The notes below the pieces were generated by a model that had not been told where the DNA came from, did no database searches, and saw only the letters and a program-made list of their open reading frames with translations. Made by a program: the position numbers and the translations under genes. A stretch of 53,577 bases of DNA from an uncultured Bacillota bacterium. Lineage in GTDB: Bacteria; Bacillota; Dethiobacteria; DTU022; UBA8154. The DNA is taken from NCBI GenBank assembly GCA_937973635.1, contig CALJJZ010000041.1:1-53577 (forward strand), in the 5' to 3' direction. The first letter of the stretch is position 1. Each line of letters opens with the position of its first letter. Positions 7,590 to 53,577 of this stretch are shown here, one piece after another.

Positions 7590-8864
7590 CTAGAGCCTGG
7601 CCTGCAAGTTTTTGCGTTGGGCCTGGAGGTGGTTTAAAAGTACCTCCGTTAAATAGACCGCACCGTTAAAGCCCATAAAGGGGGTGTGTGCATAAAACTT
7701 AATCATGTGTGTCAGGTTAGGATTGGCCAGCTGGAGGCGCACAGGCACGTGCGCCCCCAGCTCTAGCAGCACGCCGTCGCCCAGCAGCAGGGAAGGATTA
7801 CTCTCTGCAATAAGCTGGGACATCTGCTGCTCATCGCTGTCAAAGAGGATAATTTCCCGAAGGGGCGCGGGCAGGGCAGCGGCGAAACCTTTTTCTTTAT
7901 GCCTGATCAGGATTTTTTTGATCTCCAGTTTCAGCTCATCCCTAAGAAACGGCAATATACCCAGGGCAAAATCATAGGCGCCGGAAAGTATGGCCGTCAT
8001 ATTCCCATACGTAAAGGCCGTATGGACAAACTTGTGCAGGTGCTTTTGCCCTTTACCTGCCTGATCTTTAAAGAAAAGCTCATTACCTTTGCTTGAACAG
8101 GCAGCTTCAATCTTTTTAACCCACTGGTATGTGCCTTTGATGCCGTAGGGGCTGCCGTAAACAAAGGGCATACCGTATTTTTCCTGCAAGATCTCGGCAC
8201 ATTGGAGGCCCTCGGAACGCAGCACGAGGTTAAATTCCGCCTGGGAGGCCTGCTCGATCTCTTTAATGGAGGTATTGGCTGTAAAAACAGTATGTGCCCT
8301 GTAGCCAAACCCCCCAGACATAATATTTTGGATCTCCTGGAGGTCAGCGGCAAAGTTATAGGCATCGATCGTGCCGCCGATGATGTTATATGTCCCCTTT
8401 AATTTCTCCCGCGGCCCCTGGACAATCTGCCCAGCTAAAACGGTCAGCACCTCTCGGAGGCCCTGAGTATAATCGCCCCGGAACCCGCCCCCTGTAAAGC
8501 AGATAAGCTTTGCCCTTACTTTATCCCGCAACTCCTGGCAAATGCTTTCAATATCGACTCCTACAATTGATGAGATGGAGGAGGCCAGCACAAAGATCAC
8601 CGGAGGGCTATAATGCTCGTCTACCTCCTTTATCGTCTCGGCCAGCCTGCCGCTGTCCCCCATGATGAGGTCTTCTTCTTCCAGGTGAGTAGTATAAAGC
8701 TTTGCCTGCAGTTCCCCGTTGTACTGCGTCAGCCCTTCCAAAGCATAGTGGGTTGTCCCCGCCGGGCCATACTCAATTATATAAGCGTCTTTTATGGTAG
8801 ACAGCGCCCAGATCACGCCCATCCTATCCGAGGGCAAAGGCAAATATTTATAGAGCTGCCGCAT
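7590..8864 (-). CDS. nitrogenase component 1-like subunit without cluster cysteines
   Basis: This is a 424-residue protein of the nitrogenase component 1 superfamily (NifD/NifK/BchN/BchB/CfbD). I chose the ATG at 8864 (AAGGG eight bases upstream), which overlaps the preceding subunit gene by 17 bases; the longer frame to 8984 adds 40 unrelated residues. Conserved structural blocks are IIEYGPAGTTHYALEGL, LASSISSIVGVDIESIC and NIIGGTIDAYNFAADLQEI. All three usual cluster cysteines are replaced: Ser/Ala in the first region, Thr37/Thr38 in GPAGTT where GPxGC is expected, and Ser near residue 96. The Asp that completes the BchNB cluster is also not at that place. It probably pairs with the upstream Cys-bearing subunit in a tetrapyrrole-reductase-like heterotetramer. 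Confidence 0.85.
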   Translation of the reverse strand: MRQLYKYLPLPSDRMGVIWALSTIKDAYIIEYGPAGTTHYALEGLTQYNGELQAKLYTTHLEEEDLIMGDSGRLAETIKEVDEHYSPPVIFVLASSISSIVGVDIESICQELRDKVRAKLICFTGGGFRGDYTQGLREVLTVLAGQIVQGPREKLKGTYNIIGGTIDAYNFAADLQEIQNIMSGGFGYRAHTVFTANTSIKEIEQASQAEFNLVLRSEGLQCAEILQEKYGMPFVYGSPYGIKGTYQWVKKIEAACSSKGNELFFKDQAGKGQKHLHKFVHTAFTYGNMTAILSGAYDFALGILPFLRDELKLEIKKILIRHKEKGFAAALPAPLREIILFDSDEQQMSQLIAESNPSLLLGDGVLLELGAHVPVRLQLANPNLTHMIKFYAHTPFMGFNGAVYLTEVLLNHLQAQRKNLQARL

Positions 8865-10164
8865 GGTGTTCACCCTTTCGCCTGTATTTAAAAACACTGA
8901 TAGCATCAGCCAGCGCCTGCATGACCAGGAGAGGCACTTCAAACCCCAGTTTTTTGGCCACGCCATCCAGGACCACCTGGACAATACCTTTCTCCATTAA
9001 AAGCATGGGGTTTTCGTGTCCGATATAGATATCCAGGGACAGGTGGTCATACAGCTGCCGTAACAGGGCGATATTGGCAACGCGGGAAACGTAGGGGTCA
9101 TGGCCCGTAGCAAGAATTTCCTTTAGGTACTGCTCATCGTCCGCATAGAGGTCCCTTGCCTGGATCAGTACCGGTTCCATCCCCAGAGCAGCCAAAAAGC
9201 CGCTTAACTCAAAGGCTAAAAGGGGCGTATTGGCATAAAGAAACCGCTTGCCCCGCAGCATCCCTTGATACTGCTGCTGTGCTTTTAATACCTGTCCTTT
9301 CATCTCTTTCACTTCCTGCTCCAGGCTCAGCCCCAGCTTTGCCCCAATTTCCCGGTAGCCTCTCTCAATCCGCTCCAAATTCAGGTATTTCTCAAAATAA
9401 ACATAGGGAACCTTGAATTTTTCCTTCATTTTCTGCGCCAGCTTCAAGGACGTAAAATCCGTTACAATATTCAGTGCCGCCGCCGGAGCCGTTTTGAGTA
9501 AATCAATACTGCTGCTGGCAGGAAGGACCATATGGACCTGCACCTCCCGGGTCCGCAGCACCTTTAACAATTCAGTATCTTCCACGCCGCTATAGCGGTG
9601 GCCGAGGAGATTAACCGTCTTTTCTTGGCGCGGCTGTTCCTCCATAAGTTTAAGCATTACCTCCAGCGACCGCTCGATCCCTGGAATGTGGTTGTCGCAC
9701 TTAAAATGCTCTGTTTTAACCAGCAGCAGCTTGGCCTGCACCTGTTCCTGCACTTCACAAATAAGCGCTGCCAGATCCTCGCCAATTACTTCCAGGATAC
9801 AAGTTGTTACCAGCAGAATGGCTTGGGGCCGGTAGCGGCGATCGATTTCCATAACTGCTTCCCTTACTTTTCCCTGGCAACTAAAGACTACGTCGTCCTT
9901 GGTCAAAGCAAAGCTGAGGAAATTATCCTCCAGGCCGGCAAGACTATTTGCTCTGTCAATGCTGAACGATTTTGTGTAGTAGGTGCATTCATCGCTGCCC
10001 ACCACCAGGACAAAGAGGCCCTTGATATAGCCCGCCGTCAGGGCTACGCCGAACAAGGGGCAGTGGGTTCCGGGGAACTGGGCCAAGGAGAGCTGTTTGA
10101 TATCCTTGGCCGTGCTGATTTGTGAGACACGCTTTAATTTTTCAAGCTCTTTAAGTCTAGACAA
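8848..10164 (-). CDS. nitrogenase component 1-like subunit with three cluster cysteines
   Basis: The second component-1-like subunit has 438 residues if the TTG at 10164 is used (GGAGGAG upstream; overlap of eight bases with the ATPase stop). The cysteines sit at about 35 (GTHCPLFG), 60 (GSDECTYY) and 122 (TTCILEVIGED). The spacing of 25 and 62 residues is very close to that of BchN of dark-operative protochlorophyllide reductase (26, 51, 112). The protein is shorter than NifD and I see no equivalent of the NifD FeMo-cofactor ligands. It is therefore expected to hold an Fe-S cluster that passes electrons to a substrate other than dinitrogen. Genomic context (importer, NEAT protein, Fur-like boxes) points to a tetrapyrrole. 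Confidence 0.88.
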   Translation of the reverse strand: MSRLKELEKLKRVSQISTAKDIKQLSLAQFPGTHCPLFGVALTAGYIKGLFVLVVGSDECTYYTKSFSIDRANSLAGLEDNFLSFALTKDDVVFSCQGKVREAVMEIDRRYRPQAILLVTTCILEVIGEDLAALICEVQEQVQAKLLLVKTEHFKCDNHIPGIERSLEVMLKLMEEQPRQEKTVNLLGHRYSGVEDTELLKVLRTREVQVHMVLPASSSIDLLKTAPAAALNIVTDFTSLKLAQKMKEKFKVPYVYFEKYLNLERIERGYREIGAKLGLSLEQEVKEMKGQVLKAQQQYQGMLRGKRFLYANTPLLAFELSGFLAALGMEPVLIQARDLYADDEQYLKEILATGHDPYVSRVANIALLRQLYDHLSLDIYIGHENPMLLMEKGIVQVVLDGVAKKLGFEVPLLVMQALADAISVFKYRRKGEHHAAAL

Positions 10165-10972
10165 AGGTTCCTCTCCTCCTCGCTTCAGTCTGGGCGCAGG
10201 AAATACCAAGGGGATAAAACACGGGCTTGCCTATGCGCCTGTCTAGGGCAACTTCTGCTTCCACATGGTACACATGCCTGAGCATCTCTTTAGTAAGGAC
10301 TTTTTCCGGGGCGCCCTCCGCAAAAATTCGACCCTCTTTAATTACCAGGAGCCTGTGGCTATAACGTGCCGCCTGGTTGAGGTCGTGCAGCACCATAATA
10401 ATGGTAATGCCAAACTCTTTATTTAAACCGCTAATCAACTCCATAACTTCAAGCTGATGGCTTATATCCAGGTAAGTAGTCGGTTCATCCAGTAGCAAAA
10501 CTTCAGTTTTTTGGGCAAGGGCCATGGCAATCCAGGCCCGCTGCCGTTCCCCACCTGATAAACTGTTTACCGTCCTGTGAGAAAGTTTTTCTAAACGGGT
10601 CTGTTTAATCGCCCACCATACTATTTCTTCATCTGCGCTGCTCTGGCACGCATACCACTTACGGTGAGGCAGCCGACCGTACCACACCAGCTCCTCCACG
10701 GTAAAATCGGGTGGGCTGACATTATACTGGGAAAGGGCAGAAAGCTTTTTCGCCACCTCTTTGGTGGGCAATTTATGGATATCATACCCATCCAGGTACA
10801 CCGCCCCACCCTGCTTAGCCATCAACCTAGATAAAACTTTTAATATAGTGGACTTCCCTGAGCCGTTGGGCCCAATTAAAGAGACTATTTCGCCTTTCTC
10901 AAGGGTAAACCCGAAGCCGTCCACCACAATGTTGTTGTCATAGCCAACCTTTAAGTTAGCGGCTTTTATCAT
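10157..10972 (-). CDS. FecE/BtuD/HmuV-type ABC importer ATPase
   Basis: This 271-residue ATPase energises uptake of iron-siderophore, heme or cobalamin. Walker A is GPNGSGKST, the Q-loop follows LSALSQYN, the signature is LSGGERQR, Walker B is VLLLDEPTTYLD, and the switch His is in MVLHDLNQAARYS. These are the features of the FecCD-associated ATPase group. The start overlaps the permease stop by four bases (ATGA), and the stop overlaps the nitrogenase-like gene by eight bases. Importer and reductase genes are therefore translationally interlocked, which argues that they share one substrate. Confidence 0.95.
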   Translation of the reverse strand: MIKAANLKVGYDNNIVVDGFGFTLEKGEIVSLIGPNGSGKSTILKVLSRLMAKQGGAVYLDGYDIHKLPTKEVAKKLSALSQYNVSPPDFTVEELVWYGRLPHRKWYACQSSADEEIVWWAIKQTRLEKLSHRTVNSLSGGERQRAWIAMALAQKTEVLLLDEPTTYLDISHQLEVMELISGLNKEFGITIIMVLHDLNQAARYSHRLLVIKEGRIFAEGAPEKVLTKEMLRHVYHVEAEVALDRRIGKPVFYPLGISCAQTEARRRGTFV

Positions 10973-12003
10973 ACTCTGTATGTCCCTCTCCTTCTTAGCA
11001 AATAAAGAAAAAACGGCCCGCCGATAATCGCCATCAATATTCCCACCGGCAGCTCCACCGGGCTAAAAGCAGCCCGGGCTCCCGTATCGGCCATAACCAG
11101 CAATGCTGCCCCCAGCACGGCGCTGAGCGGCAGCAAAAAGCGGTAATCTGTGCCGACGAGAAGCCTGCTAATATGCGGCACAACCAGTCCCACAAAACCA
11201 ATCAAACCCACCATAGCCACGGAAATGCCCGCCAAAAAAGCTGCAACCAAGGACAATATGACCCTCGCAGCGTTGACGCGTATGCCGAGATTTTTGGCCA
11301 CGTCGTCACCCAATAGCAACACATTAGCCGTGTTGACACAAAGCATGGCAGCGATAAGGCCAATAAGGCTGTATGGCAGCAAGGTCCCTGCCTGGTACCA
11401 GCTCCTGCCAGCTACGGTGCCATTCAGCCACATAATCACATTTTGGATGCGGTCGCTGTACAAAACAGACAACAAGGCCAAGCCCCCCCCCAGAATGGCA
11501 TTTACGGCCACACCGGCCAGGATGATCCTGATCGGGTCAATGCCCCTTTTCCAGGCCAAAACATAAACCATAAATGCGGCCATAATGCCGCCCAAAAACG
11601 CAGCTATGGGAACAAACCTGGTCAGTTGGGGCAGAGTTAACATAATTGTCACTGCGGCCAGACCCGCCCCTGCCGATACGCCGGTAAGGCCGGGATCGGC
11701 CAGGGGGTTGCGCATTACTGCTTGCAGCAGGGCACCGGACATGGCCAGGTTAGCCCCTACCATAATGGCAATCAACGTCCTCGGCAGGCGTATATGCATA
11801 ATTACCGTCCTGGCCGCCGTTGTTTCCGCCGCGGAAACAGCGCCTATTATCTCCGAAACAGCATAGTTAACGCTGCCATAGCGTATGGACAGCAGGCTGA
11901 CTGAAAATAAAAGGCAAAGGCTGCAAAGAAAGATAAAGACGCGTTTGGCTAACCGGGGACCCAATTTTCCTTTGGCTGCTTCTAATTTAGGCATTGCTTT
12001 CAT
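10969..12003 (-). CDS. FecCD/BtuC-type ABC importer permease
   Basis: This 344-residue permease has about ten membrane helices and the FecCD/BtuC hallmarks: RLPRTLIAIMVGANLAMSGALLQAVMRNPLADPGLTGVSAGA near the N-terminus, and LAGISVAMVGLIGFVGLVVPHISRLLVGTDYR in the ATPase-contact region. The family imports iron-siderophores, heme and cobalamin. Its start overlaps the end of the binding-protein gene by 17 bases; an alternative ATG nine bases downstream is possible. The substrate is not readable from the permease itself and is inferred from the adjoining nitrogenase-like and NEAT genes. Confidence 0.95.
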   Translation of the reverse strand: MKAMPKLEAAKGKLGPRLAKRVFIFLCSLCLLFSVSLLSIRYGSVNYAVSEIIGAVSAAETTAARTVIMHIRLPRTLIAIMVGANLAMSGALLQAVMRNPLADPGLTGVSAGAGLAAVTIMLTLPQLTRFVPIAAFLGGIMAAFMVYVLAWKRGIDPIRIILAGVAVNAILGGGLALLSVLYSDRIQNVIMWLNGTVAGRSWYQAGTLLPYSLIGLIAAMLCVNTANVLLLGDDVAKNLGIRVNAARVILSLVAAFLAGISVAMVGLIGFVGLVVPHISRLLVGTDYRFLLPLSAVLGAALLVMADTGARAAFSPVELPVGILMAIIGGPFFLYLLRRRGTYRV

Positions 12004-12997
12004 CCTGTTTGTACATTATTTCTGCCAAGAACATCAAGGCCTCCACCACCTCCGGGCCGGGGTTGGAAAAAAACAGAGCTGAAGGCAGGTCGTACACCCG
12101 GTTGTTTTGCCAGGCAGAAAATGTCTGCCAAAGGGGGTTTTTGAGAAACTCCTCCTCAAAGAGCTTTTGTGTTTCTTCTGGGGTACCATGGGAAATACGC
12201 AGAATGATCTCTGGGTTAAACTCCGCAACCTGCTCCATGCTTATGGGGAGATAAGCAGAGGCACCCTCGGCTAGTCTGATTCCCTCCGTAATGTTTTCCC
12301 CACCCAGCATTTTTACCATACTACCTGCATAAGAAGTCTCCCTGGCCATGAGAAAAGAGCCTCCGGCACCGAAAAGTATGAGTACCCGGGGCGATGGTTT
12401 GCCTTCAGCCAGGCTTAAAGCCGCTTTTTCCTTTGCCTTCATTTCTTTTAGCAATTGAGAAGCCTCCTCTTCTTTGCCAAAAGCCCGGCCAAGCATTTCA
12501 ACGCTGTTGATTGTCCCGGCATAAGACTGATTATCCAGAAAGAAAACGGGGAGCTTATGCTGGGCCATTTTTTCTCCAAGATTGGGCTTAAAGTTTGAAG
12601 AAACAATCACCAAATCCGGATTTAAAGCCGTAATCGCCTCCAGGTCAGGCTCCATGGGAAAGCCTACCGTCGGCAATTCTGCCAGCTTGCCCGGCAGTGG
12701 TTGCATCGTGCGGGTTATACCTACCATTTCAATCCCCAGTCTGTCCATAAGCTTGGCCGTAGCCACGGAGAGAACGATGATACGCTCGGGCATGCTCTCA
12801 CTGACAAAGACGGTACCGTCAGGCTCCACCAGCCTGAATTTCCCCGTCTCCGCCATTACATCCTTATCGCTGCTTTCAAGGTTATAATTCACATCTGGAG
12901 CAGCGTGGGGAGAAACTCCGCAGCCGCCCAGTAATAACGCGGAAAATATAATGATACAAGCAGCAAGCAGATACTTCTTGCTTAACATTTTTAACAT
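11987..12997 (-). CDS. periplasmic-binding lipoprotein of the FecB/BtuF type
   Basis: This substrate-binding lipoprotein has about 336 residues. The start at ATG 12997 has GGGGG upstream and gives the lipoprotein signal MLKMLSKKYLLAACIIIFSA with lipobox LLGGC (Cys26). The mature part is the two-lobe helical-linker fold: MPERIIVLSVATAKLMDRLGIEMVGI, DLEAITALNPDLVIVSSN, and ILFGAGGSFLMARETSYAGSMVKMLGGENI. It delivers a metal chelate to the permease encoded immediately downstream. Heme, a corrinoid or a siderophore all fit the fold; the NEAT/sortase B neighbours favour heme. Confidence 0.9.
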   Translation of the reverse strand: MLKMLSKKYLLAACIIIFSALLLGGCGVSPHAAPDVNYNLESSDKDVMAETGKFRLVEPDGTVFVSESMPERIIVLSVATAKLMDRLGIEMVGITRTMQPLPGKLAELPTVGFPMEPDLEAITALNPDLVIVSSNFKPNLGEKMAQHKLPVFFLDNQSYAGTINSVEMLGRAFGKEEEASQLLKEMKAKEKAALSLAEGKPSPRVLILFGAGGSFLMARETSYAGSMVKMLGGENITEGIRLAEGASAYLPISMEQVAEFNPEIILRISHGTPEETQKLFEEEFLKNPLWQTFSAWQNNRVYDLPSALFFSNPGPEVVEALMFLAEIMYKQDESNA

Positions 12998-13025
12998 TGT
13001 TCCAACCCCCACCAGCTGAGATGAA

Positions 13026-13793
13026 TTAAGGTGCACTGCTTATTCGCTCTTGTTTAATTACTGTTTTTGCCAACTCCATATATATGGCCGTAAGATCGGC
13101 TGCTGGAAAGGCTTCTACTACAGTTTTCCCCTTTTGCTCCGCTTTCTGCACGTAGCTGTCCCGGGGAATGTACTGCACCACAGCTGTATTTATCTCCTCT
13201 GCCACCTTTGCTACTAGCTCCCGCTCACCGTCAACCCCCTTCGCGTTTAAAATTAGCCCCTTTAAAGTTGCATAACCTTTACTTTTGAACTGCTCTAGTG
13301 CTGTAGAAATATTTGTGGCAGCATAAAGGGACATCATCTCTCCTGAAGTTACAACGAAAACATCCTCCGCATACCCTCCCCGCAGCGGCATGGCAAAACC
13401 TCCGCACACTACGTCCCCCAGCACGTCATAAATAACCACATCGGGACGGTATACGGCAAAGGCATTTAATTCCTCCAGCTTTTCAAAGGCGGTGATTATT
13501 CCTCTGCCAGCACAGCCTATGCCTGGTGTGGGGCCTCCCGTTTCCACACAAAGGACATTCTTGTACCCCTGAAAAACGATGTCTTCCAGGGAGAGGGCAT
13601 CCTTCTTGTTTTTGATACTCTCCAGTACAGTGGGCACCTTTTCCCCGTCCCTCAGATTCTTGGTAGAATCAGCTTTGGGGTCACAGCCGATCTGCATAAC
13701 TTTTAGCCCCATGACAGACAAAGCAGCAGAGAGGTTAGCCGCTGTTGTTGACTTGCCGATACCACCTTTGCCATAAATTGCTATTTTGTGCAT
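13026..13793 (-). CDS. NifH/BchL-like iron protein
   Basis: This 255-residue ATP-dependent reductase is the electron donor expected for the two component-1-like subunits. The P-loop [19 protein letters not shown] is at residues 7-25. The two Cys that bridge a [4Fe-4S] cluster between monomers are present: Cys94 in GIGCAGRG and Cys130 in [14 protein letters not shown]. These blocks are essentially the NifH switch regions, including the Arg that is ADP-ribosylated in some NifH proteins. It is shorter than NifH (about 290) because the C-terminal extension is missing. The gene sits between the DUF2325 gene and the importer genes. No nifD, nifK, nifE, nifN or nifB is visible. Confidence 0.92.
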
Positions 13794-17348: not shown

Positions 17349-17382
17349 AAAAAGGTAAAAAATTAAATCTGTTTCACTTTCC

Positions 17383-17540
17383 AGGTGCCCTCTATCTATG
17401 AGGGAGAATAGGGAATTAGGTGCAAAGCCTAAACGGGCCCGCCACTGTAAAGGGGAGCTGTTGCTCAAAAGCCACTCCGCAAGGGGGAAGGCGGCAGCAA
17501 ACGATGAACCTGAGTCAGGAGACCTGCCTGGGAAGGTAAG
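17383..17540 (+). promoter_or_regulatory. cobalamin (B12) riboswitch
   Basis: Conserved elements of the adenosylcobalamin riboswitch appear in order. An AGGTGCC start stem is followed by GAGAATAGGGAA, GGTGCAAAGCCTAAACGG, the B12 box (GCCCGCCACTGTAA), AAAGCCACT, then GATGAACCTGAGTCAGGAGACC and the closing CCTG. The expression platform ends in an intrinsic terminator at 17587-17615, so high cobalamin should stop transcription of the two downstream genes. Confidence 0.93.
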
Positions 17541-17586
17541 CTGCTTGCGCGAACAAAGCAGGCTTATGCGTTTGGATGTTGGAAAG

Positions 17587-17615
17587 TCCACGCTATTATC
17601 AGCGTGGATTTTTTT
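17587..17615 (+). terminator. riboswitch-controlled intrinsic terminator
   Basis: TCCACGCT-ATTATC-AGCGTGGA forms an eight-base-pair stem with a six-base loop, followed directly by seven Ts. It lies between the riboswitch core and the dehydrogenase start codon (17655), the standard OFF-switch arrangement. A possible in-frame GTG at 17604 falls inside this hairpin and cannot be the real start. Confidence 0.9.
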
Positions 17616-45579: not shown

Positions 45580-48500
45580 TCAGCGGGCGCGCTGGAAATA
45601 ATATTCCACGCCGGCCCTGAAACCTTCGGTAAAGCCCAGCACGTTCTGCGAAGCGTCGGCACTGCCGTCAAAACTGAATTTGACCGGCCCTATTGTTTGT
45701 GAGAGGGAGAGCTTGCCGCCAATGGAACCACCCAGCGCCCCCATGTTAAAGCCAAACCTTTCCGCGAGGCCCAGGGCCAAAGCTTTGGCCGCCTGCAGTA
45801 TCTCCTGGTAGTCGTCATTTTCCAGGGAATATTTAGCTACAGACCAGAGAGAAGTTTCTATCCCTTTAAAAGCCCCTGCGGCATACTGGCCGGCGCTCCT
45901 TACCGTATCCACAAGGGTACTTTCCACAAAGGCTCCTTTTTCCAAAGTGTCCATCACGGCAAGCATTTCCCAGGTTTTGGGGTTAATTTCAAACCAAGCC
46001 CAGCGCCTGCAGCCGTCGATAAGCGACGGCCTGTTCGTGATGAGGACCATATTTGGCGTTTGCGATAGGTGCTCGAGCATTTCAGACGAGGCACCGGCCC
46101 TTTCCAGGGCCAGCCTGGCATCTTGCTCTAGGTACTCCAGGAACACAAGCCCTGTCCCTTCGGGCGCCTGCAGCCAGATCTCTGTCAGGCCGCTACCTTG
46201 GCCAGGCAAAACAGCGGTTTCTAAAGTAGAGGCAAAGATGCCGCTGAGGATGTTAAAAGTTTTGCTCCTGCTTTCTTCTCCGGCGTGCACCTGGTCGTGC
46301 ACAGACAACAGGCTCAAGGAGATCCGCAGTTTTTCCCCTCCTTTATGCGTCACCACCATAACCCGGGGCCTGGTGATTCTGCCGACAGTTAAGCCCAGCT
46401 CCCTGCTCAGGGCACGGTCATGCAGCGTCTGGGCAGAAATAAATTTGGCAATAATGCTCCTGCCGTACCATCTAAGGGCAGAGAGCTCGCCGGGGTCTTT
46501 CGCCATGCTGTATACCTTCTCGGCCGCCTCCTGCAGTTTTCTGCTTGCTGCCGGCGTTAAATCGGGAGCATTAATGCTTGCCGTAATAAAAACATCGTCA
46601 ATTTCCATGCCCTCATCCAACCTCACCAGGTGGACAGCCTTTGTTTGATCAGGAAAGCTGAAGATAAGTTCAAATTTCTTTGACTCAAATCTATCTAACT
46701 CCACGTATTGCTCGCCAAAAACCTCCCCCGCGGGCGTAATTAAATAGATCCGGGCCCTCTTGCCATCCCTGGCTATGCCTATATCCACAGCATCCAGGCT
46801 CAAGAGGTCCAGGGCAAGCTGGCCGTTGTACAGTAAGCGGCTGGCCAGGCCAGGCGCACCCTCTGTCTCCCCGCTGAGGGCCGCAGCAAGCTCGCCCAGC
46901 TGCTCCCTGGATCCTTTCTCTACAGCATAACCATAAACATTTATTTCAAGCCACATTTTATTAGGTGCTTTTTCCAGGTAAGGCGTATAGTCCAGGTATA
47001 CCAGCCGTTTGAGGGCTTCCAGTTCCTCCAGGAAAGGCATTACCAGGATATGGTAATTGTTTTCCTGGTCCACATAAGCTACTGCCGGCAAAGAATCAAG
47101 GGTCATCTCCGTTACACCGGACATCTTAGCCAGTTCTTTGCGTCCCCGCTCCGTTAGCTTAACAACCTTCAATTTAGGCTGGTAGCCCAGCCGGGAAAGG
47201 AGTCCCACGGCCAGGTGGGCATAATCCTGTTCTGTGCCAAAACCCTGGGTCAATACCGCTTCCCGAGCAAAATTATAATTGAACGGCCCGTAGTTGCCCG
47301 GGCTTGGGATGTAGCGCAGGCGTTTCATGACCCTGATCATGGCGTCTACAGAATTTATTTCCCCCATCAGCTGCGCGCCGTAGAAGCTGAGGGTAGGCGG
47401 CGCTATCTCCTCCTTGTCAATCGCCGGCTCTCCCAGGGGAATATGTCCCTGGGTGAGCTGTACGGTTTTTTCAGGATGCTGCAGGCGGTATCTTTCCACG
47501 GCAAGGCCGATGGCCGCGTTTAAATCCCGGGCAAAGAAGTTATCCCCTTCTTGGTAATAAGTTTCTTCGGTCAACAGACCCTGAGGGTAACTGCCGCTCC
47601 TTACCTTTAACTTCAACCCGGTAAAAGCTTCTCCGTATAAATACCATTCATTTCCTGCTTCAGGCAGGAGTTGAAAGACGATGATGCCGCGTCTGCTCGT
47701 GCCGTCATAAACCACGCTCTCATCTGTAAAGCCTAAAATCAGCCGTTCCGTCAGGGCGTCAGGAAGCAGCCTTTCTGAAGCGGCTGTGCTCCTCCCAGGC
47801 CCTTGAGCAAAACTGCCAAGGCCCCCGCTCCTTTCTTGCGCTGACGGATCCTCTCCTTGCACCTCGTCCTGAGAATTTTTCCCAGCCTCAAAGAAAGCAT
47901 CGGAGACAAGGGAAAACAAGCCGGCAATACCCGCTGAGGAAAGGCCGTCTTTTTTGTCATGGATGGTGATATCGGCAATAACACATTCATCAGGGTATCC
48001 AGGGAGGCCACCGTCTATTTTTACCAGGTCATTGACGGTTAGACCCATGAATTCCGAACTGTACTGCACATTTAAGTTGCCCGGCAGCATCTCCCCGGCA
48101 GCCACCGGCACAGCCTTATCCTCACCGCGCAGCTCCACGTAGAGCTCCACCGCGTTTTTTCTCAAGGCCCCGGGGACTTCAAAGAGCCACCTCACCCGGT
48201 TGAAGGAACCGGGATAAAGCATCCTGGGGTGGGCAAACCCTGCAGGTAGCAAACTGGTAGCAGGGCTTACGGGAATATAAAAATCGCCGCTGGCCGTCTT
48301 GAAGCGCAGGGAAAAGCGCTCCAGGGGATCGACCTGCAAAAGGGCCTGCAGCCGGGAAGTAAAGTTGCCTTCCACCACCTTAAAAACAGCGCCCGCACCC
48401 GGCGTAAAGCTCCGATCTATCCCGTCATCCCCCTTATCCTTGCCCGTACCCGGTATTTCCGTCAGTTCGTCCCAGGCAGTGATCTCCAGGGTGAAAGCGT

Positions 48501-51500
48501 CTGTCAACCTGGCAGGGGCTTGTTTGGGCAAAGAGGTAAGGGCAAAGCTCCTAGGCCGCATTTCGCCCACCAGGGGAAGGTCTATATGTCCGTAGTTGAG
48601 ATCGTAAACATGCAAGGACAGCTGCTCCATGGGTATATCGGGCACCAGGAAGACCAGCGTGCCTGCAATGCTTTCCTCGGGCATAACCATGAGGGCATTA
48701 TCGCCAGGAGCGGCAAGGGGCTTCTCCACCAGCCAGGTAGCCAAAGAAGCAGGATAAGCCCCTCCGTTGTTGTAAGTCAGGGAAAAATGAGAGACAAAAT
48801 CGGGAATCAGGTAGGGTATTTTAAGCAATTTAGTTTCCCCCTTGGCGCCACCACCCAGCCAAGCAGAGGGGTGGGAGGAGCCATCGGGATAGACAGTGAC
48901 TTCCTGGGCCTCCAGGATATTTCGCATCTCCATGGTCAGAGCCAAGAAACGGTAATTGTTAGGGGCGGTAACACCGCCCAGTTTTTTCATCAAAACAAGG
49001 GCAGAAGTGCTGATCTCCGCAGCCCCGTTGGCGCCTTTTTTGTTCGCTGCCATACGTTTGGTAATAATCGTATCCTCCGCCGGCACGCCGTAACCAGAAA
49101 TGAACTCTGCCGTATATTTGTCATACTGCCTGAGAATTTTACCGGGCAGGTATCTTATTGTCTCAGCCGCCACTAGCTCGCCGCTTTTTTTAACGGGGGA
49201 GAGCTCCACCAGTTTGCCTGTGGAATACGATTCCCTAGCGCCTGTAGGCGTTGTCTTTTCAATGGCCACAAAGAGGTTGCTAAGCTCGCTGGGAGGAGCA
49301 CTCTTCACCTGGGCAAGGAGCCTGTTGAAGCTCTGGGATAAAAGGGCCGGGTCTTCGCTGACCACATATTCTCCTCCTGACAATGCTGCAGCCAGCCTGA
49401 AATCCTCCGCCTCTTCCTCTACGCCGAGACCCACCCAGAGAACACTAATCTCATCTTTTTTGATCTGGCCGAGAAGTTCGAGGAAAGATTCGTTGCCCGC
49501 CGTCGTCTCCAAGGCCGCATCGGTGATATAGACAAGCACCTTCTTTGTTGAAGGTATTTCTTTCAGGGTCTTGTAGCCGGCCAGCACGGAGCCCGCAATA
49601 TCCGTAGCCCCGCCGGCCTCAAGACGCCCCAGCCCCCTCAGGATCTTCATTTTATCCGTGGTCAGGGCCTGAACGATCTTAGTCTCATCATTAAACTCCG
49701 CCAGCTGCAGCAGCACATCAGGGGGCAGCTCCAGGACAAAGTGGCGTAGCAGTTTTTTTACGTTGTAGATTCTGCTACCATAGGTCTCACTGTAATCATT
49801 CATAGAGCCGCTGGTATCAATGACAAAGGAAACCACGGGGACGTCACCGGGGGAAGCTTCCAACGGTCGGACATAGGTTGCTTCATAAGTGTTGCCCAAG
49901 TTTTCGTTGATGGCCGCGAAAACCTGCTGCAGCGCCGCAGCGTCGGTTGCACTGAAATACCGGCCGCCTGATACCTTAGCCAGGCTCTCCAGGGTAGCCC
50001 CGTCATGCTCCCTGCCAAACCCAATGGTAAAAAGTGGAACAGCTGCCTCCTGCACCAGCTGCAGGGTCTCGGCCAGAGTCAGGCCACCGCTGTATTTGAC
50101 GTCGTTTTCTCCGTCCGTAAAGACAACGAGGGTGGGCCGGTCTTCCCCGGCGAGGAGGGCAAGTCCCATTTTAATCGCTTCATAGAGGGCCGTATCCCCG
50201 CCAACTTTAAGCGATGCTAAATTTCTTACCGCCTCTGCTTTGGTAGTGCCCTTGAGCTCCCTGGGTATATCATCAAAATCAACGACCCTGATCAGTGCCT
50301 CTTCAGGCAGCCCTCTGATGAACTGCTCCGCTGCTTTTAAGGTGGCCTGCATCTGCCCCCGCATGGAACCAGACGAGTCCAATAAAAGGACGACACTTGG
50401 GGGCGTTTGCAGCGGCGCCACACTGAGCAGCTTTACAGGCACGCCTCCTTCCATCACCATGGTATTGCCGGTGTCGGGTAAAATTTCCCTCGTGCTTCTG
50501 TCCAAAAGCGTAAAATTAAAGCTAACTTGGTTTTTGGAGGTATCTTCTTTCAGCGTGCCGATGCGGATACCCCTCTCGTTATAGCCGTCTGCGCTAGCCC
50601 TCATGGTGTTAGCCAGAAAAAAGGGCACCTCCACTTCCGTCATTTCGCCAGAATGGACCGGCACCATAAGGGTCTCATAGTTGCTTACTAAAGCATCGCC
50701 CCGGGGATAGATCTTGACATCCCAGAGTCCCGCTGGGACAAACATAATAAAGTCCCCGTCAGGCGTGCGGTCCAGGTAAAAGTCTTCATAGGAAAATTCT
50801 GGATGTTCGATGCTCAGGCAGGCATTGCCGCCCAGGGGAAAGGCTTCAATACCCGCCACAAATTCAGAGCTGACCTTAATGGCGCCCAGGGGTTCCCCGT
50901 ATTTTATCTGCGGCAAAGAGCCGGTTTTTAAGAGGGTAATTTTTATTTCCTTTGTGGTAGCAGGATCATACCAGCTAACTTCCCAGTTGCTAAACCCCGG
51001 ATCGTACATAATGCTGTCATAGTAGAAGGAAGTGCCCATGGCGTCAAAAACCGTATCCCTGGTCCGGTAGCTGCGCCTGTAGGCCCCAAAATTATTCTCT
51101 GTTTTAATTTCAAAGCTCACCTGGCCCCCATCATATTCAAGGTGGATAGACTGGTACTCGTCTCCGGGATTATAAGAGGCAAAACGGACAACATTTTCGT
51201 CATAATCCTCAGTATGGATCACAAGGGTATCGCCAACCTTTAACTCGTCCTGCCTGACGATATTCAACATAATTTTGTCATAAGCAATTGCCGCCTCCGC
51301 CCACCAGCGCAGGCCGTCATCGCCGTTAAGGACAAAGACAATACTGTCTGCGGCATAACCCATGATCGTGCCGTTTTTGAATCTAATGTAATGCTCGATG
51401 TCGTAGACAAATTGATGGTTTTCTTCCATGGTTTTCCCAGAATCAAAGGGCACATGCAACAACCATGCATCGCCATACACTTCCCTCTGCGTAAGGGCAT

Positions 51501-51828
51501 TCTGCCTGTCGGCATAGGTATAGGTATAATAACTTCTGGGGCGCAGTTCAATATAAGAGTAATTGCTTTCGGCACCCATGGGGTTGACAAAGGGCATGGG
51601 ATTAACCCAGGGAGGGAAATCGCCGTTTTCGGCAAAAAACCAGACCTGAGGGAAATCGTCGGGGGTAAAGACATAAACATCTTCAGACTCATCGCTCAGG
51701 GGAGCGCCAGCGGCAGGATCGCTTTCCTTTCCGCCTTCTTTGAGCAAAACAACGGCTGTTACGAGAGCCGCCAGAAACAACACAACCATACCTGCCAGCA
51801 TAATTTTTTTCCTTGTCAACCCGGCCAC
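45580..51828 (-). CDS. giant membrane-anchored protein with two VWA domains
   Basis: A 2082-residue protein. One membrane helix at residues 9-29 (IMLAGMVVLFLAALVTAVVLL) after a basic N-terminus makes it a signal-anchored extracellular protein; no LPxTG or SLH motif ends it. Two von Willebrand factor A domains have complete MIDAS motifs: DSSGSM near residue 483 with TDGEND, and DTSGSM near 670 with ITDAA. Around residues 1500-1620, GTEQDYAHLAVGLLSRLGYQPK and YHILVMP resemble a transglutaminase-like core, but the nucleophilic Cys is replaced. The rest is mostly beta-rich. No homologue of known function is recognised; adhesion or protein-protein scaffolding at the cell surface is likely. Confidence 0.85.
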   Translation of the reverse strand: MAGLTRKKIMLAGMVVLFLAALVTAVVLLKEGGKESDPAAGAPLSDESEDVYVFTPDDFPQVWFFAENGDFPPWVNPMPFVNPMGAESNYSYIELRPRSYYTYTYADRQNALTQREVYGDAWLLHVPFDSGKTMEENHQFVYDIEHYIRFKNGTIMGYAADSIVFVLNGDDGLRWWAEAAIAYDKIMLNIVRQDELKVGDTLVIHTEDYDENVVRFASYNPGDEYQSIHLEYDGGQVSFEIKTENNFGAYRRSYRTRDTVFDAMGTSFYYDSIMYDPGFSNWEVSWYDPATTKEIKITLLKTGSLPQIKYGEPLGAIKVSSEFVAGIEAFPLGGNACLSIEHPEFSYEDFYLDRTPDGDFIMFVPAGLWDVKIYPRGDALVSNYETLMVPVHSGEMTEVEVPFFLANTMRASADGYNERGIRIGTLKEDTSKNQVSFNFTLLDRSTREILPDTGNTMVMEGGVPVKLLSVAPLQTPPSVVLLLDSSGSMRGQMQATLKAAEQFIRGLPEEALIRVVDFDDIPRELKGTTKAEAVRNLASLKVGGDTALYEAIKMGLALLAGEDRPTLVVFTDGENDVKYSGGLTLAETLQLVQEAAVPLFTIGFGREHDGATLESLAKVSGGRYFSATDAAALQQVFAAINENLGNTYEATYVRPLEASPGDVPVVSFVIDTSGSMNDYSETYGSRIYNVKKLLRHFVLELPPDVLLQLAEFNDETKIVQALTTDKMKILRGLGRLEAGGATDIAGSVLAGYKTLKEIPSTKKVLVYITDAALETTAGNESFLELLGQIKKDEISVLWVGLGVEEEAEDFRLAAALSGGEYVVSEDPALLSQSFNRLLAQVKSAPPSELSNLFVAIEKTTPTGARESYSTGKLVELSPVKKSGELVAAETIRYLPGKILRQYDKYTAEFISGYGVPAEDTIITKRMAANKKGANGAAEISTSALVLMKKLGGVTAPNNYRFLALTMEMRNILEAQEVTVYPDGSSHPSAWLGGGAKGETKLLKIPYLIPDFVSHFSLTYNNGGAYPASLATWLVEKPLAAPGDNALMVMPEESIAGTLVFLVPDIPMEQLSLHVYDLNYGHIDLPLVGEMRPRSFALTSLPKQAPARLTDAFTLEITAWDELTEIPGTGKDKGDDGIDRSFTPGAGAVFKVVEGNFTSRLQALLQVDPLERFSLRFKTASGDFYIPVSPATSLLPAGFAHPRMLYPGSFNRVRWLFEVPGALRKNAVELYVELRGEDKAVPVAAGEMLPGNLNVQYSSEFMGLTVNDLVKIDGGLPGYPDECVIADITIHDKKDGLSSAGIAGLFSLVSDAFFEAGKNSQDEVQGEDPSAQERSGGLGSFAQGPGRSTAASERLLPDALTERLILGFTDESVVYDGTSRRGIIVFQLLPEAGNEWYLYGEAFTGLKLKVRSGSYPQGLLTEETYYQEGDNFFARDLNAAIGLAVERYRLQHPEKTVQLTQGHIPLGEPAIDKEEIAPPTLSFYGAQLMGEINSVDAMIRVMKRLRYIPSPGNYGPFNYNFAREAVLTQGFGTEQDYAHLAVGLLSRLGYQPKLKVVKLTERGRKELAKMSGVTEMTLDSLPAVAYVDQENNYHILVMPFLEELEALKRLVYLDYTPYLEKAPNKMWLEINVYGYAVEKGSREQLGELAAALSGETEGAPGLASRLLYNGQLALDLLSLDAVDIGIARDGKRARIYLITPAGEVFGEQYVELDRFESKKFELIFSFPDQTKAVHLVRLDEGMEIDDVFITASINAPDLTPAASRKLQEAAEKVYSMAKDPGELSALRWYGRSIIAKFISAQTLHDRALSRELGLTVGRITRPRVMVVTHKGGEKLRISLSLLSVHDQVHAGEESRSKTFNILSGIFASTLETAVLPGQGSGLTEIWLQAPEGTGLVFLEYLEQDARLALERAGASSEMLEHLSQTPNMVLITNRPSLIDGCRRWAWFEINPKTWEMLAVMDTLEKGAFVESTLVDTVRSAGQYAAGAFKGIETSLWSVAKYSLENDDYQEILQAAKALALGLAERFGFNMGALGGSIGGKLSLSQTIGPVKFSFDGSADASQNVLGFTEGFRAGVEYYFQRAR

Positions 51829-52852: not shown

Positions 52853-53143
52853 CTATCTGCCACCTTCTATGACTCGAAAATCCAAGCCGTGCTGCCCCAG
52901 GGTATAATCCAGGATCTTACCCTCAAAATAGCGCGATAACCGGCTTTCGTAAACCAGCGTCAGATCGTTGACCGCAAATCTTATATCCCCGACATAATTA
53001 ACGGGCTCTTCCAGAGCCAGGCTGATGCTTGGGCCTCCTCAGGTTACGCTGTCCAGTTGCAGGCGTACGTGTTTTTCCCCTGCGCCTTCATTTTTGATCA
53101 TCTCCGCCAACCTGGTAGCTGCCTGCGGCGTTACACTCATCAT
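52853..53143 (-). CDS. HesB-like selenoprotein with in-frame TGA (Sec35)
   Basis: A 96-residue HesB/IscA-like protein that is only continuous if the TGA at 53041-53039 is decoded as selenocysteine. Before it: MMSVTPQAATRLAEMIKNEG and KHVRLQLDSVT. After it: GGPSISLALEEP, then NDLTLVYESRLSRYFEGKILDYTLGQHGLDFRVIEGG. The motif (Sec)GGPS and the following LxLEEP are those of the known HesB-like selenoproteins, where the position is Cys in other members. The reading frame is maintained on both sides and a SECIS-like hairpin lies at the right distance. Other HesB/IscA cluster-binding cysteines are absent. Start ATG 53143 (or 53140), with AGGTGA upstream. The selenocysteine machinery itself is outside this window. 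Confidence 0.85.
53004..53018 (-). promoter_or_regulatory. SECIS-like hairpin downstream of the in-frame TGA
   Basis: On the minus strand GGCTCT-GGA-AGAGCC forms six perfect base pairs with a three-base GGA loop. It begins 20 bases after the TGA, placing the loop G about 26 bases downstream, within the range of bacterial SECIS elements, whose loops require a G at the first positions. Confidence 0.75.
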
Positions 53144-53336: not shown

Positions 53337-53577
53337 GTAACTGCTCAGCTCTTTGACAAACGATCTACAATTCCGGAACAAATGGTTTTCCTGCCAGTGC
53401 AGACTTAATAGCATCAAGCACCGGGACAGAATTTTTCCTGGCCGTAGAAATGTAGCTGCGGATACGGCAGAACATTTTTGCGCCCAGATCACTGCGGAAA
53501 ACGCCTGAGATTTTCTGCTTCACCTTGAGCATGCGCAAATCCCTTTCTGCTAAATTGTTGTCAAAGGGAATCTTAAA
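53337..53577 (-). mobile_element. IS66-family element, one end within the window
   Basis: The transposase frame at 53365-53577 is the 3' end of an IS66 element that continues beyond the window. The proposed terminus is GTAACTGCTCAGC at 53337, 28 bases past the transposase stop; IS66 elements commonly begin with GTAA. The other end and any target duplication are not visible, so the boundary is provisional. Confidence 0.55.
53365..53577 (-). CDS. IS66-family transposase, C-terminal part only
   Basis: The frame, open to the window edge, encodes the last 70 residues of an IS66 TnpC transposase. [47 protein letters not shown] is the highly conserved C-terminal region containing the catalytic Glu of the DDE triad (NLAERDLR). 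The stop is TAG at 53365-53367. The upstream part of the gene lies outside the window, so intactness cannot be judged. Confidence 0.92.

Follow-up and report, generated by a model that had tools for sequence, protein, structure and literature searches.

The 53,577-nucleotide stretch of DNA analysed here (the window) almost certainly carries a functional gene for a selenoprotein of the HesB-like/IscA (Fe-S_biosyn) superfamily, a gene in which UGA codon 35 would be translated as selenocysteine (Sec) by means of a downstream hairpin and whose product is predicted to form an IscA-like domain. The window is a single contig (C41) of a genome assembly (G000) of 2.56 Mb in 98 contigs, 96% complete. 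The features discussed below are:

52853..53143, minus strand: coding sequence of the predicted HesB/IscA-like selenoprotein, start ATG at 53143, stop TAG at 52853-52855, 96 amino acids.
53039..53041, minus strand: in-frame TGA, inferred selenocysteine at codon 35, with UGGP at residues 35-38; TGA in 62/65 homologues, Cys in 3/65.
53004..53018, minus strand: predicted bacterial SECIS (bSECIS) hairpin GGCUCU-GGA-AGAGCC, based on conservation and published model criteria (PMC13188914).
52120..52863, minus strand: radical SAM gene downstream of the selenoprotein gene, starting at GTG 52863 (11-base overlap) or ATG 52830 (no overlap).

Read on the minus strand from 53143 to 52853 with TGA translated as U, the gene gives a 96-residue frame that contains a single TGA and is open on both sides of it: MMSVTPQAATRLAEMIKNEGAGEKHVRLQLDSVTUGGPSISLALEEPVNYVGDIRFAVNDLTLVYESRLSRYFEGKILDYTLGQHGLDFRVIEGGR. 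A preliminary description of the window had placed the gene in exactly this interval with an in-frame TGA at codon 35, and the minus-strand translation bears out both the frame and the codon; the strand, however, had been left unstated, and the plus strand of 52853-53143 holds no such frame. The translation contains one Sec and no Cys. This is a real gene for a small iron-sulphur-assembly-like protein, very probably with Sec at the in-frame UGA. Ordinary gene calling would skip or shorten it, and the curated NCBIfam models fall short of it.

Homologues were found in 17 of the 23 genomes of the same family and in 54 of the 71 genomes of the order, the matches listed in both cases all carrying exactly one TGA, while a profile search of the phylum gave matches in 78 of 398 genomes. 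Alignment with Cys-containing HesB homologues had been suggested earlier as a check, and an unrelated residue in the homologues at this site had been named as grounds for rejection. Among 65 aligned proteins extracted from the family, order and phylum searches, the codon-35 column holds U in 62 and Cys in 3, with no unrelated residue; this 62:3 ratio describes the best-scoring matches and is no census, three of the phylum matches without a stop having been read. Many of the further phylum matches without a stop are probably ordinary Cys-containing A-type carriers. The three Cys forms have continuous frames across the site and make up one clade nested among the Sec forms of one family, which is consistent with a Sec-to-Cys replacement there. 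Downstream of the TGA the family residues L44, D79 and F89 are kept. A scan of genome contigs returned a close relative already in the set (G016, see below) as its sole match, and a scan of viral contigs returned two weak relatives with 24-28% identity.

The hairpin begins exactly 20 nt past the TGA and places its apical loop 26 nt past the UGA, with a stem of 6 bp, a GGA loop and an energy of -8.2 kcal/mol in the centroid structure. The published bSECIS model describes a loop of 3-9 nt with G in the first two positions, a stem of 4-16 bp, a distance of 16-37 nt from the UGA and a minimum free energy (MFE) of at most -7.5 kcal/mol (PMC13188914). GGCTCT-GGA-AGAGCC, put forward earlier as a SECIS candidate, was thus correctly located and agrees with every one of these published criteria. 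A single hairpin would be unconvincing by itself, because its fold energy is unexceptional for the composition (z = 0.62) and randomising the gene's synonymous codons yields a 6-pair stem about 5% of the time. It is conservation that carries the case. All 62 Sec genes have the hairpin at one and the same offset from the TGA, 58 with a GGA loop, and stem pairs 3-5 are invariant; pair 1 is GC in 60 and AU in 2, pair 2 is AU in 31, GU in 24, GC in 6 and mismatched in 1, and the variable pair 6 is standard in 36. Codons within the hairpin are frozen accordingly (GAG 62/62, CTG 59/62, GCT or ACT 62/62), GAG being fixed despite GAA being the commoner Glu codon in the aligned Sec genes. At least 5 of the 6 pairs are kept in 61 of 62 genes, as against a mean of 8.9 and a maximum of 20 of 62 in 200 synonymous-codon randomisations, counts that are to be read as non-independent events among related sequences. 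Cys homologues have 3-4 of the 6 pairs left. Both this loss and the changes from G-C to A-U at the two outer pairs speak for selection acting on the RNA. Ala/Thr and Ser/Pro codons face each other in the stem, and in the family alignment the combination Thr-Pro occurs 0 times and Ala-Pro 5 times; in so small a sample this is only suggestive of RNA structure constraining the protein sequence.

The preliminary description had implied that the organism has selA, selB, selC and selD and had named their absence as grounds for rejecting the reading; all four were located in the genome above their cut-offs. Contig C27 carries selA (601 bits, cut-off 267.9), selB (380 bits, cut-off 242) and the tRNA-Sec gene selC (75 bits, gathering score 47; called SeC with anticodon tca (UCA) by ARAGORN), all no more than 7 kb apart, and selD lies on C86 (363 bits, cut-off 125). 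The selD gene itself has a TGA in frame within the N-terminal segment that holds the active site (...SSSAGUAAKIGP...), and two full-length formate dehydrogenase genes (fdhA) above cut-off have one TGA each. Because selABCD are present and TGA interrupts selD and both fdhA genes, the source organism, by its gene content, decodes Sec and has several genes for selenoproteins. A formate-dehydrogenase-like gene with a TGA (L101, G000:C51:1615-4308) gives four separate matches in different open frames and is possibly frameshifted, an assembly error or decayed. Taken together, conservation and machinery give high confidence that the UGA would be decoded by SelB and tRNA-Sec at the hairpin. In the proposed mechanism, SelB with Sec-tRNA(UCA) would bind the GGCUCU-GGA-AGAGCC hairpin just 3' of the UGA and codon 35 would be decoded as Sec during translation. 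The protein would then fold into an IscA-like domain in which Sec takes the place of the first IscA ligand Cys; this Sec would be the only chalcogen side chain of its type in the protein, since the latter has no Cys.

Other explanations of the TGA have to be weighed against Sec decoding. Were it a true stop, the product would be a 34-residue peptide and the hairpin an attenuator or terminator, and a pattern scan does find the hairpin terminator-like. We consider this very unlikely, as the IscA homology and the predicted fold span the TGA, the Cys forms are continuous frames and the full Sec machinery is present. Termination at the hairpin was rejected: no T-run follows it (CGTTAATTAT) and it is conserved inside coding sequence.

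A pseudogene or sequencing error, with the TGA a real or artefactual nonsense mutation of a Cys codon, might be suspected in a single MAG contig where the gene sits near the contig end by an IS66 transposase fragment. Such a mutation would hardly recur at one codon position in 62 homologues whose genomes were assembled separately, nor leave the family residues downstream intact and the hairpin conserved through synonymous sites; we count this explanation as already refuted by conservation and its probability as negligible. Reading of the TGA as another amino acid, e.g. Trp, under a variant code found no support and has practically no chance of being correct, given that Cys is the only alternative residue in relatives, that tRNA-Sec(UCA) and SelA/B/D are encoded in the genome, and that selA, selB and the large open reading frames of the window are open under table 11.

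With Sec decoding as the preferred reading, the gene can be placed in a family. HesB-like selenoproteins had entered the bacterial catalogue by 2006, from anaerobic Firmicutes and Deltaproteobacteria (PMC1794560), and a UxGP motif has been recorded for them (PMC13188914). The earlier assignment to this family from the (Sec)GGPS context agrees with the motif, UGGP fitting UxGP and Sec standing in the column of the Cys conserved in HesB. When compared with solved structures, the family profile matched IscA, SufA, HI1723 and AQ_1857 with E-values down to 1.8e-20 and aligned Sec with the first conserved IscA Cys. The AlphaFold model (pLDDT 85.6) has IscA/SufA as nearest folds at TM about 0.7-0.8, and its nine PDB matches at E <= 0.001 are all of IscA/SufA type. 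PF01521 (23.1, cut-off 26.3), NF038090 (34.2, cut-off 85), TIGR00049 (33.1, cut-off 58.8) and TIGR01911 (18.9, cut-off 66.35) are among the best families for the protein, each under its cut-off. The cut-offs of TIGR01911 and NF038090 appear strict for the whole branch, since all nine other Sec homologues scored singly, canonical ones included, also fall below both. The HesB-like identity is thus favoured by motif, fold and SECIS, on which membership in the wider family rests, and counts against itself the missed curated cut-offs and the lack of Cys.

The protein shares with HesB-like selenoproteins (TIGR01911 HesB_rel_seleno; NF038090 IscA_HesB_Se) a Sec at UxGP, the fold, the length and a SECIS just downstream, and differs from them in having no C-terminal Cys, in falling under both cut-offs and in belonging to a long-stem clade. 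A-type Fe-S carriers have three conserved Cys ligands, one internal and two in a C-terminal CxC. IscA/SufA/ErpA carriers (PF01521, TIGR00049) are similar in predicted fold (PDB 1x0g, 1r94, 2d2a, 1nwb), whereas the protein described here has none of the three ligand Cys, the first being Sec and the C-terminal pair absent. By sequence, then, it belongs, as a divergent member, to a selenoprotein family that was already known.

Together with copies in two other genomes, G016 and G013, the protein forms one clade with support of 100/99 and a stem of 1.19 changes per column. The copy of G016 (SLRC01000197.1, a Syntrophomonadaceae MAG of the same genus) is 63-65% identical to it and that of G013 52-53%; both have the TGA at the same codon and the same hairpin. 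None of the clade's three proteins contains Cys, a property shared by only two other Sec proteins among the 62, the remainder retaining one Cys or more among their 20 C-terminal residues. The G016 and G013 genomes encode an additional, canonical Sec copy, about 30% identical, with a Cys-rich tail. In the 96%-complete G000 assembly only the divergent copy was found and no canonical Cys-tailed one, an absence that may be genuine or may reflect sequence lacking from the assembly. For a divergent clade with no Cys residue, an IscA-like three-thiol site is not to be assumed. A lone Sec on the modelled IscA scaffold could not provide all three of the usual ligands from a single chain, and therefore oligomer-shared ligands or selenol redox chemistry come into consideration. 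Going by the model, the role would most likely lie in single-site metal/Fe-S chemistry or in redox or carrier chemistry of the selenol, with ligands perhaps contributed by several subunits of an oligomer, rather than in service as a three-thiol IscA scaffold. We regard it as possible, if somewhat doubtful, that the three-member clade is a distinct subfamily that uses one Sec on its IscA fold, has dropped every Cys ligand and would hence carry out redox chemistry with the selenol, or metal chemistry with a single (oligomer-bridged) ligand, in place of ordinary Fe-S carriage. A Cys-free, Sec-only clade joins the HesB-like family and should be useful for asking what Sec does.

The radical SAM gene is probably co-transcribed with the selenoprotein gene here. 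The G016 and G013 copies (neighbours read at L043 and L042) have other neighbours and no adjacent radical SAM gene, and a conserved operon was rejected on this ground. Because of this non-adjacency in relatives, the neighbouring genes are of no help in assigning a role. Upstream, the IS66 transposase fragment occupies 53365-53577 (minus strand) at the contig end. Elsewhere in the window, a cobalamin riboswitch aptamer (17366-17545, plus strand; RF00174, 126 bits) lies upstream of a plus-strand gene at 17604 that resembles a zinc-type alcohol dehydrogenase by sequence. A minus-strand cluster at 7590-13793, with a NifH-like gene (13026-13793), NifD/K-like genes (7590-8984 and 8848-10209) and ABC iron/cobalamin-type transporter genes, was judged from its open reading frame translations to encode a putative nitrogenase-like system. 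The minus strand at 45580-51828 holds a very large open reading frame (2082 residues) in which two regions, with DxSGS motifs, appear to be of von Willebrand A type.
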